Virus record (IMG/VR): IMGVR_UViG_3300026367_000005
Span: 1-20,471 of that record
Direction: 5' to 3' (one strand)
DNA length: 20,471 nt
Source: a virus
The notes below the pieces were generated by a model that saw only the letters and a program-made list of their open reading frames with translations, did no database searches and was not told where the DNA came from. Shown here in pieces: positions 2,272 through 5,012 of the stretch. The first letter of the stretch is position 1; every line of letters begins with the position of its first letter. Position numbers and translations under genes: made by a program.

Positions 2272-2289
2272 CGGGGCGGGACGACCCCG
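2272..2289 (+). other. Candidate cosN (cohesive-end cleavage site)
   Basis: The sequence cggggcgggacgaccccg has 5-bp inverted arms (cgggg/ccccg). With a 2-base gap it aligns closely with the lambda cosN core cggggcggcgacctcg. It sits in the gap just before the terminase small subunit gene, where lambda carries cos, and is followed by a repeat cluster at 2323-2369. The large terminase downstream is of the lambda gpA type, which makes staggered cuts at cos. No cleavage data are available and GC-rich chance similarity is possible. Confidence 0.4.
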
Positions 2290-2293
2290 GAAT

Positions 2294-2310
2294 CCTGCCA
2301 GTTTTGCAGG
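2294..2310 (+). other. Small hairpin between cos-like site and iterons
   Basis: cctgc (2294-2298) and gcagg (2306-2310) pair across a 7-base loop, followed by a G/T-rich tract (ggttttggttgggtt). The U-tract is interrupted, so this is at most a weak terminator for the Z-like gene. It may be part of a packaging-site structure. Confidence 0.3.
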
Positions 2311-2322
2311 GGTTTTGGTTGG

Positions 2323-2369
2323 GTTGTCAGGTTGTCAGTGGCGCTGAGGTGGCGTTGTCAGGTTGTCAT
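2323..2369 (+). repeat. Four GTTGTCA iterons in two tandem pairs
   Basis: gttgtcag occurs at 2323, 2331 and 2354, and gttgtcat at 2362. The copies form two head-to-tail pairs whose starts are 31 bases apart, close to three helical turns, so both pairs would face the same side of the DNA. They end 20 bases before the ATG of the terminase small subunit, whose N-terminus carries a helix-turn-helix. By analogy with lambda cosB R sites, they are candidate binding sites for that protein or for a late regulator. Confidence 0.6.
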
Positions 2370-2388: not shown

Positions 2389-3000
2389 ATGGTCGAGACA
2401 GTGATGATGACGCTGTCGGAGATTGCGGCGCGCGACGGGATTTCCCGCCAGGCGATTTCGAAGACCGTGCGGGAGCTGGTCGAGAAGCACGACAAGATCC
2501 CGGTCGAGCGGGACGGGCGGGAGCGGATCGTCCGGGTGTCGGTGGGTCACATCGATCACTATCGCGACAAGTTCCAGAACCCGGCCAAGGTGCTGGCGTC
2601 GCGGCCGTCACCGTCCGAGGACAAACCGAAGCGCGATGGCGCGCCGCCTATTGAGCAAGAGGGTGATTCCTTCGAGGAAGCGCGCCGGCTCAATGAGTGG
2701 CTCCGCTACAGCCGTCTGAAGCTTCAGCACGACGAAGCCTGCGGCCGGCTGATCAGCGCTGACGCCGTGGCTGCAGCGCTCGACAGCCTGGGACGGGAAA
2801 CGCAGGCGATCATCGCCAGGCTACCGAACCATGCCGACGATCTTTCTGCGCCCTTCGCCAAGGAAGGCGTACACGGGTTGCGGACGGCATTGAGGGAGGT
2901 TGCTCACCAGATCAGCCTTTCGATCGCCGAGAGGTTCAAGGAAATTGCGGCATCCGCTCCGGAGCGGGATGTCATCGAGGATGAAGAGACCCGGGCGTGA
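2389..3000 (+). CDS. Terminase small subunit (Nu1-like)
   Basis: The 203-residue product recognises phage DNA and recruits the large subunit to start packaging. The N-terminal helix-turn-helix is visible at residues 8-30 (TLSEIAARDGISRQAISKTV), followed by a basic wing-like segment to about residue 55. The C-terminal half is a helical region (residues ~100-200, with RLNEWLRYSRLKLQHDEACGR and a later R-L-P segment) of the kind that oligomerises and contacts TerL. I chose ATG 2389 because gagg lies 5 bases upstream; ATGs at 2404 and 2407 would still keep the HTH, and the longer TTG frame from 2332 runs through the iterons and is unlikely. The stop overlaps the next start (GTGA). Confidence 0.8.
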   Translation: MVETVMMTLSEIAARDGISRQAISKTVRELVEKHDKIPVERDGRERIVRVSVGHIDHYRDKFQNPAKVLASRPSPSEDKPKRDGAPPIEQEGDSFEEARRLNEWLRYSRLKLQHDEACGRLISADAVAAALDSLGRETQAIIARLPNHADDLSAPFAKEGVHGLRTALREVAHQISLSIAERFKEIAASAPERDVIEDEETRA

Positions 3001-5012
3001 CCATTCACCCAGGCGCATTGCAGCTGGTGGCCTCACGGCTCGCCGAGGCTATCCGCCCGCAACCGCCAAAGCCGTTTGTGGAGTGGCTTGCCGAAAACGT
3101 TGTTCTCGTCGACGGTCCGCGCAAGGGCGAGTTGTGGTCGCCGCGGGACGCGCCCTATCTGGTCGAGATCGCCGAGTGTCTCAGCCAGGAGCATCCGGCG
3201 AACCTGGTCACTGTCCGCAAGGCGCAGCAGACAGGGGTTTCGATCCTGGCGCTGTCGTGGTGCCTCTACATCGCGGAGATCTGCCCGGACAACATCCTGT
3301 ACGGGGTGCCCGGCATTGACGCGCTGCAGGATATCAACGGGCAGAAACTGCAGCCTTTGATTGATGCCTGGCAGGCGAAGACCGGCAAGCGGATCATCCT
3401 GCCGGTGACGAGCCGTTCGGGGCGCAACTCGACGACATACGAGAAGCGGTTCCCGGGAGGGTACATCTCGCTCGCCAACGCCAACACAGTTATGGACCTG
3501 TCCATGAAGACCTGCCGCTTCGGGGTCAAGGACGAGGTTTCGAAGTGGGGCGAGCTGGCGAACGGCGCGGATCCCGAGACGCTGTTCTTCGGACGCTTCA
3601 CCGCGTTTCGCCGGCAGCGGAGTTACAAGATATTCGAGTTGTCGACGCCGGAACTCGATTCCGGCGACGCGCTCGGCGACGACCCCGGGCATTGCCGGAT
3701 CGACCGGTCGTTCAAACGGTCCGACCAGCGGTTCTGGAACGTCGAGTGTCAGGAGTGCCATGAGTGGTTTGTGATGAGCGACGACCTGCTGCAGATCGAT
3801 CGGGAACACCCCCACAAGAGCGTGCTGGTATGTCCGAACCCTCAATGCGGCCACTGGATAGACGAGGCCGAGCGGGTGTCGATCGTTCGCGCCGGTGAGT
3901 ACCGGCCGACACAAAGTGGCCCGGACAGGCATCCGGGCTTCCATGTCGATGCCTTCATGAGCCTGCTCATGAGTCTGGGCGACATTGCCGACGACAAGCT
4001 GAAGGCTGAGAAACGCGGCGAGGCGGGTGCCAAGGACTATCACAACCTGGTGCGGGCGCTGCCCTACCAGATGCGCGGTAACGCGCCGGACTGGCAGCGG
4101 CTGATGGAGCGCCGCGAGGACTATCCGGACGGCGTCATCCCGCCGGACGGGCTGATATTTGTCGCAGGCGCCGACGTGCAGCACAACGGCATATATGTCG
4201 AGTTCGTGCCGTTCGGCTCGGACAGGCAGTCCTGGTCGGTGCACGCCGAGTTTCTCGAAGGGGAAACCGACGACAAGAACGCCGGGGCATGGGTGAAGCT
4301 AGACAAGCTTTACCGAACGGAGTGGCCCGATTCCTATGGATCGGCACGCCGCGTCGGGGCGATGGCAGTGGATTCCGGCGACGGCAACCGCACCACGCAG
4401 GTGCTGGAATGGTGCCGAGAGCGGCCTGACACCTATGCGATCGCCGGCAAGCACGGCCGCGGGGTGCCTGCCATCGGTGTTCCGACAAGGAAATCGGTTC
4501 GCAAGGGCGGCAAGCGCAAGCGCATCGGTTCCACTATGCAGTGGCCGGTCGGGACATGGTCGCTGAAGGGCGAGTTCTACGGAAACCTGCACCGGCTCGG
4601 GATTCGTTCCGGTGAGGTGGTCGACCCGCCAGGGTATTGCCACTTCAACGAGGCCCGGAACGAAGAATTCTTCCGCCAGATCACGGCGGAATATTTCGAT
4701 CAGAAGATGGTGCGCGGACGCCTCGTCGAGGAGTGGAAGAAGATCCGGCGCGACAACCACTTTCTCGATTGCCGGATCTACGCGATGGCGATGGCGGAGC
4801 ATCTTGGTCTGTCAAGGCTGACGCCCGCGGGTTGGGCGGCGCTGAGGGTGCAGTTGACGCCTGCGACAGCGCAGACGCTGTTCTCGCCGGTGTCGCAACA
4901 GATTGCCGCACGGGGCGGGGAGGATGCATCGACCGATGCTCCCGCGCAGGCAGCGGCTACAAACAAAGCGCCGGCCGAAGATGTGCTGGCCAAATGGAAA
5001 AGGCGAAAATGA
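2997..5012 (+). CDS. Terminase large subunit, lambda gpA family
   Basis: The 671-residue ATPase-nuclease packages DNA (lambda gpA is 641 residues). The Walker A segment is at residues 73-82 (VRKAQQTGVS, fitting the K-S/A-x-Q-x-G-x-S/T variant of this family). The Walker B region with catalytic acid is KDEVSKWG, residues 178-185. A zinc-ribbon-like set of cysteines lies at 251, 254, 279 and 284. Nuclease-type acidic residues are D393 (GADVQ), D459 (AVDSGDG) and D591 (FLDCRIYA). The C-terminus is low-complexity, Ala-rich, ending KWKRRK. Translation starts at GTG 2997, overlapping the TerS stop, and the end overlaps the portal start (ATGA). It partners with TerS and docks on the portal. Confidence 0.95.
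   Translation: MTIHPGALQLVASRLAEAIRPQPPKPFVEWLAENVVLVDGPRKGELWSPRDAPYLVEIAECLSQEHPANLVTVRKAQQTGVSILALSWCLYIAEICPDNILYGVPGIDALQDINGQKLQPLIDAWQAKTGKRIILPVTSRSGRNSTTYEKRFPGGYISLANANTVMDLSMKTCRFGVKDEVSKWGELANGADPETLFFGRFTAFRRQRSYKIFELSTPELDSGDALGDDPGHCRIDRSFKRSDQRFWNVECQECHEWFVMSDDLLQIDREHPHKSVLVCPNPQCGHWIDEAERVSIVRAGEYRPTQSGPDRHPGFHVDAFMSLLMSLGDIADDKLKAEKRGEAGAKDYHNLVRALPYQMRGNAPDWQRLMERREDYPDGVIPPDGLIFVAGADVQHNGIYVEFVPFGSDRQSWSVHAEFLEGETDDKNAGAWVKLDKLYRTEWPDSYGSARRVGAMAVDSGDGNRTTQVLEWCRERPDTYAIAGKHGRGVPAIGVPTRKSVRKGGKRKRIGSTMQWPVGTWSLKGEFYGNLHRLGIRSGEVVDPPGYCHFNEARNEEFFRQITAEYFDQKMVRGRLVEEWKKIRRDNHFLDCRIYAMAMAEHLGLSRLTPAGWAALRVQLTPATAQTLFSPVSQQIAARGGEDASTDAPAQAAATNKAPAEDVLAKWKRRK

Follow-up and report, generated by a model that had tools for sequence, protein, structure and literature searches.

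We find that the region just ahead of the small terminase (TerS) gene in virus record IMGVR_UViG_3300026367_000005 is very probably a cohesive-end (cos) site, where the DNA of a contractile-tailed phage of Hoeflea-like Hyphomicrobiales is cut and its packaging starts. The window is the whole stretch analyzed, positions 1 to 20,471 of that record (20,471 bases); coordinates below are window positions, and window features lie on the + strand unless stated otherwise. An earlier note on this DNA had proposed a candidate cos site before TerS, and this proposal is supported by the terminal repeats of relatives' records, by fixed spacing and by a large terminase (TerL) of the lambda gpA family. The elements that the note placed at 2272–2369 are present, although the module is larger than it described, also comprising a cosQ-like octamer (2245–2252) and a CCAGT element (2298–2302).

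From left to right, the module begins with the cosQ-like octamer GGGACCGT, which occurs once in the window and is found in 93 distinct relatives. The cosN core, CGGGGCGGGACGACCCCG (2272–2289, no strand assigned), follows, with CGGG and CCCG arms that are kept in 71 aligned relatives around a variable center. Within it lies the predicted 12-nucleotide cohesive end, GGGCGGGACGAC (2274–2285). CCAGT stands between the core and four exact copies of the iteron GTTGTCA, at 2323–2329, 2331–2337, 2354–2360 and 2362–2368. As the earlier note had read them, they form two pairs with an offset of 31; all four are direct, and the period within a pair is 8. None of 60 dinucleotide shuffles of the window gave four copies of any 7-mer within 46 nucleotides (largest 3). 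Next come the TerS gene (2389–3000; 203 amino acids with a predicted winged helix-turn-helix; phrog_57 terminase small subunit, E 1.8e-13) and the TerL gene (2997–5012; lambda gpA family; GpA_ATPase E 9.1e-40, GpA_nuclease E 6.1e-66), so that the gpA-family TerL and the winged helix-turn-helix TerS are both encoded beside the site, as in the lambda type. We take the ATG at 2389 as the TerS start; relatives align from this ATG, and a longer in-frame reading from the TTG at 2332 would begin inside the iterons.

The geometry of the module is fixed across relatives. The nine Hoeflea-group sequences compared (window included) all share the same cosN core, the same 12-mer and an iteron 1 that begins at +50 from the predicted left end. 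Iteron 1 is also at +50 in Rhizobium phage vB_RleM_PPF1 (PPF1) and in the Microcystis phage yong2, counting from their record starts. Iteron 1 lies 77–81 nucleotides from cosQ in all 71 non-redundant relatives (78 or 79 in 60 of them) and 25 nucleotides from YCAG in 54 of the 57 relatives with YCAG. By contrast, the gap between the iteron array and the TerS start varies. Across relatives, CGGG, CCCG, CAGT and TTGGGTT are kept, while the 10 bases between the cosN arms vary, as expected of a cohesive end. The octamer sits 29 nucleotides left of the predicted end in the window, compared with 29–30 in PPF1, yong2 and lambda; the lambda record has GGGTCCT 30 nucleotides ahead of its right end, and this exact lambda cosQ recurs in more distant relatives (Methylobacterium, Rhodoblastus, Bosea, yong2 and others).

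Further evidence comes from the ends of relatives' records. Among sequenced phages, TerL is related to those of PPF1 (67% identity), yong2 (51%), AmM-1 (48%) and RR1-A (64% over part). The PPF1 record (NC_025427) starts with GGCCGGGGCGAC-CCCG and ends in GCG-GGCCGGGGCGAC; the yong2 record starts with ATGCGAAAGCGG-CGCGGGG and ends in CCCCGCG-ATGCGAAAGCGG. Each of these records has a terminal direct repeat of exactly 12 nucleotides and none longer, and when aligned by the downstream CCCCG..CCAGT, the 12 bases of PPF1 correspond to window 2274–2285. Filled-in 5′ overhangs would be expected to produce such a 12-base duplication at the two record ends, whereas 3′ overhangs would be trimmed. The lambda record holds its own overhang once. 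The AmM-1 record has no terminal direct repeat, and neither it nor RR1-A is informative on ends, because their record starts are arbitrary. Our literature search, which covered few subscription journals, found no paper on the ends of PPF1. The evidence for cos comprises a module with fixed geometry, the 12-nucleotide repeats that end the PPF1 and yong2 records, and co-variation of the TerS helix with the iterons.

Likeness to the lambda cohesive end plays no part in this identification, which is based on homology with relatives. The earlier note had called the core cosN-like; the sequence is there, and its lambda likeness is no evidence on its own. Aligned without gaps, the predicted cohesive end agrees with that of lambda at 6 of 12 positions, all of them in its left half, which is no better than chance in the window. 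The lambda 12-mer with up to three mismatches has 72 matches in the window, none of them at the predicted cohesive end, and we therefore rejected such similarity as evidence for the site. Nor is the rotational symmetry of cosN used as proof, because its excess over independent columns is weak even though the CGGG/CCCG arms are conserved.

TerS and the iterons vary together. The AlphaFold model of the window TerS (mean predicted local distance difference test score 84) has a winged helix-turn-helix with helices at residues 9–16 and 20–33 and strands at 39–41 and 47–51; residue 21 would accordingly be among the first of the recognition helix, and the wing would contain residues 42–46. The codons of residues 19–25 (SRQAISK), where the recognition helix begins, occupy 2443–2463. 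Iterons of relatives differ at bases 2 and 4–7 and include GTTGTC, GTTGAC, GTTAAC, GTTTAC, GTTGCC, GCTAAC and GTTATG; bases 1 and 3 are uninformative, as the search pattern left them no freedom to vary. Mutual information was computed for every TerS column against every iteron base in 73 TerS below 80% identity, with one pair (L065) added by hand. For base 4, the top column among 194 is residue 3 of the helix motif (Q21 in the window), with z = 23 against 6.6 for the next best; the residue–base counts are Q-G 43, P-A 11, A-A 11, A-G 3, M-T 2, E-G 2 and S-G 1. The top columns for base 2 are motif residues 7 and 4, and T22-type helices go with GCTAAC in 4 of 4 cases. The turn of the wing holds the top columns for base 7 (R44 and D42 in the window), and base 5 is most strongly associated with L9, V50, R28 and motif residue 6.

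Because shuffling ignores kinship, we controlled for it in two ways. Conditioned on the rest of TerS and TerL, a partial Mantel test yielded r = 0.41 (0 of 2000 permutations). On the TerL tree, there are 13 changes of base 4 and 15 of the helix class, and the two coincide on one branch 10 times against 2.2 expected; C at base 2 and helix T22 change together in 3 of 3 cases. Independent agreement comes from the regulators AdcR and ZitR, which belong to the closest matches by sequence for which structures have been solved. Their aligned helices are SQAAVTK and SPAAVTK, and the ZitR/AdcR operator is TTAACYRGTTAA (PMC6372160); A at the position of residue 21 thus accompanies TTAAC, the same as in GTTAAC phages. 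A Foldseek search with the whole TerS model returned no significant match (best E 0.075), just winged helix-turn-helix regulators at low score. The co-variation demonstrates joint evolution of TerS and iterons in these sequences and does not reveal their contacts. The earlier note's suggestion of a new specificity matched to the helix-turn-helix of this TerS is borne out to that extent, residue 21 following base 4 across the 73 TerS.

Four observations weigh against our reading. A-type helices are not strict in their iterons: three relatives (L045, L112 and L116) mix AAC and GAC, and another (L061) has GTTGTC. Base 5 is unexplained by the seven helix residues alone, since SKQAVSK occurs with GAC as well as with GTC. 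Work on a related cyanophage reports that yong2 lacks a fixed terminus (PMC9503304); this conflicts with the 12-nucleotide repeat of the yong2 record and makes that record weaker evidence than the PPF1 record. Finally, Pararheinheimera phage KLER1-1, a more distant TerL relative, has no terminal repeat in its record; it had been a candidate third phage with terminal repeats and was rejected for that reason. The KLER1-1 record (OM654378) does have GGTTGAA/TTCAACC repeats ahead of terS, at 70–130, possibly another iteron type in a different layout.

The denial of a fixed terminus in yong2 (PMC9503304) would fit a headful (pac) site, at which TerS binds the iterons, the first cut is imprecise and later cuts are made by the headful, and repeated TerS sites do flank the cut in the pac phage SPP1 (PMC4669245). 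We nevertheless consider pac packaging very unlikely here, given that TerL belongs to the lambda gpA family, that the PPF1 and yong2 records have terminal repeats of exactly 12 nucleotides at the homologous position and that cosQ, which is required for cos termination in lambda, is conserved.

It is equally improbable that the iterons are simply an operator, through which TerS or another phage helix-turn-helix protein represses or activates the terminase or late operon while packaging starts elsewhere. The iterons do immediately precede the first late gene, and the DNA-binding domain of TerS resembles MarR-type repressors. However, no sigma-70-like promoter was found in 2200–2450, the spacing of the iterons is fixed to cosQ and cosN and variable to the TerS start, and the records of two relatives end at this place. 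In Aurantimonas phage AmM-1, moreover, a methyltransferase gene separates the array from TerS, and the TerS helix and iteron match despite this separation. The AmM-1 gene, a DNA methyltransferase between cos and terS (NC_027334, 46377–47789), apparently has a counterpart in one other relative (L082). An autoregulatory role of the iterons may exist in addition to cos.

A terminator-like stem-loop, TCCTGCCAGTTTTGCAGGG-GTTTTGG, lies inside the module at 2293–2311 and is restricted to the Hoeflea group. Intrinsic termination of the operon upstream, as the reason for the conservation of the sequence, seems most unlikely: the segment gives one terminator-like match where 0.2 are expected, yet the inverted repeat is lost in most relatives, whereas CCAGT, the spacing and the iterons are kept. 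In the Hoeflea group, it may act as a terminator in addition to cos.

A cos site at this place suggests the following mechanism. The winged helix-turn-helix of TerS would bind the tandem GTTGTCA iterons, its recognition helix reading iteron bases 2–5 and its wing base 7. The bound TerS would place the gpA-type TerL on cosN, where TerL would make staggered nicks 12 nucleotides apart at 2274–2285, leaving 12-base cohesive ends of presumed 5′ polarity. Packaging would then proceed rightwards through terS and terL, and the cosQ-like octamer would serve recognition of the next cos at termination. We infer the position of the cut and the polarity of the overhang in the window phage; the putative roles of the cosQ-like element and of CCAGT are drawn from position, and the assignment of particular TerS residues to particular iteron bases is likewise a prediction.

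As a search key, the module is specific: the pattern GGGACCGT-N(56-76)-GGGTTNNC-N(1-4)-GGTTNNC matched 86 viral-contig stretches and 4 of 397 genomes from the order of Hoeflea alexandrii, while a reversed-pattern control gave 1 match in those genomes. TerL lies within 2.5 kb in 66 of the 90 loci examined, and many of the remaining loci are truncated. The key also found complete cos sites in terminase-less elements resembling phage satellites. The full module occurs without a TerL or portal match in L213 (12.9 kb), L257 (13.2 kb), L253 (13.2 kb) and L238/L279 (14.5 kb), as well as in L203/L278 and in L276, which lies in a genome without any gpA-family TerL match. Their cos sites are at L213:2279, L257:2993, L253:3437, L279:7760 and L278:8867. 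A primase (phrog_1156) and, at the far end, an integrase are encoded in L213, L253 and L257; L203 also has an integrase. A tape measure protein is present in L213, L253, L257 and L238, TerS-family matches are present in L213, L257 and L203, and L238/L279 carries a TerS homologue.

A conserved protein of ~180 amino acids follows cos in five of the satellite-like elements. A search with this protein added two contigs of 11.9 and 14.0 kb (L280 and L281), in which the full module was looked for and not found. Some members may instead be decayed larger prophages, because L253 also carries ClpP and capsid genes. One 65.5-kb record (IMGVR_UViG_2846802666_000001) holds both the satellite-like element L203/L278 and a TerL-bearing, PPF1-like prophage (L245/L277), each with a cos module, and the satellite array includes GTTAACG, the iteron type of the prophage on the same record. 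Two of the elements (L257 and L278) mix GT, GA and AA iterons; such mixing is seen in 1 of about 70 phages, and the sample is too small to conclude from.

These integrase-bearing elements of ~12–14.5 kb, which lack TerL and carry a module of the window type, apparently form an undescribed satellite group. They occur in bacteria where our search found no phage satellites described, and no paper on such satellites came to light in the literature search with its limited coverage of subscription journals. On balance, we lean towards the view that there is an undescribed, large clade of Hyphomicrobiales cos phages with an iteron-based cosB and a simple residue-to-base code in TerS, and that satellites of ~12–14.5 kb without TerL (with primase, cos, the ~180-amino acid protein, usually a TerS homologue, tape measure and integrase) exploit the same module, some through mixed arrays that fit several helper specificities.

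The genes around the module are those of a contractile-tailed phage: besides TerS and the gpA-type TerL, the window has matches to a ClpP-type head protease, a tail sheath and baseplate J. By TerL, its closest genome relatives are Hoeflea prophages (93% in H. alexandrii), and from these relatives the host would be a Hoeflea-like member of the Hyphomicrobiales. The last gene before cos is a gpZ-like minor tail or tail-completion gene (1663–2217; Pfam Minor_tail_Z E 9.8e-07, phrog_27 E 3e-22), and PPF1 has a tail-completion gene at the same place, before its record end. At the left of the window, positions 1–899 hold 6.8 tandem copies of a near-identical 132-base repeat (92% matches), which share a single open frame beside the phage late genes; they encode a 44-amino acid TPR-like repeat protein (EARLDEAVTVYEELKTLAQNRDV...).

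Among known packaging systems, that of PPF1 has a homologous module, a 67% identical TerL, the 12-nucleotide repeat at both ends of its record and the same position of iteron 1; PPF1 differs in its GTTAAC iterons, its SKAAVSK helix and its cohesive end, GGCCGGGGCGAC. The order of lambda, with cosN and cosB sites ahead of TerS, had been noted earlier and holds for the fuller series cosQ-cosN-TerS sites-terS-terL, with matching spacings. As in lambda, TerL is of the gpA family, the winged helix-turn-helix TerS gene lies to the right, cosQ is ~30 nucleotides left of the end, the predicted end has 12 nucleotides and the first TerS site is at about +50 to +64; CG stands at both nick flanks in yong2, also as in lambda. 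Lambda TerS contacts base pairs 55–63 and its R3 spans base pairs 48–65 (PMC9026076), a range into which the +50 start of iteron 1 falls. The window differs in having direct GTTGTCA iterons 8–9 nucleotides apart instead of R sites, GGGACCG instead of GGGTCCT as cosQ, and a cohesive end that is like lambda's at 6 of 12 positions. The complex cosB of lambda (R3, inverted R2 and R1, with IHF between R3 and R2) has no equivalent here: all iterons are direct, an inverted R2 is lacking, and 2245–2389 contains no IHF-like match with up to 1 mismatch. The module would thus work like lambda cos, but with these absences and its 6/12 cohesive end, it falls outside the lambda-like group as defined by Feiss et al. 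2015 (PMC4669245).

Phage N15 has a "simple" cosB with no IHF bend, a TerS site at the R3 position and one critical site (PMC4669245). The window shares the first two features and has four exact tandem iterons where N15 has a single critical site. The cos sites of Gram-negative phage-inducible chromosomal islands are without helper-type R sites and use Rpp (PMC9026076). The satellite-like relatives of the window module are similar in carrying cosQ and cosN without TerL, but they have retained iterons of the helper type, and a TerS homologue is present in most. Natural pairs of TerS and site were three in number with lambda, 21 and N15; here, there are more than 70 with a common geometry, distinguished mainly by a few residues and bases, which makes the recognition code of a small terminase directly testable.
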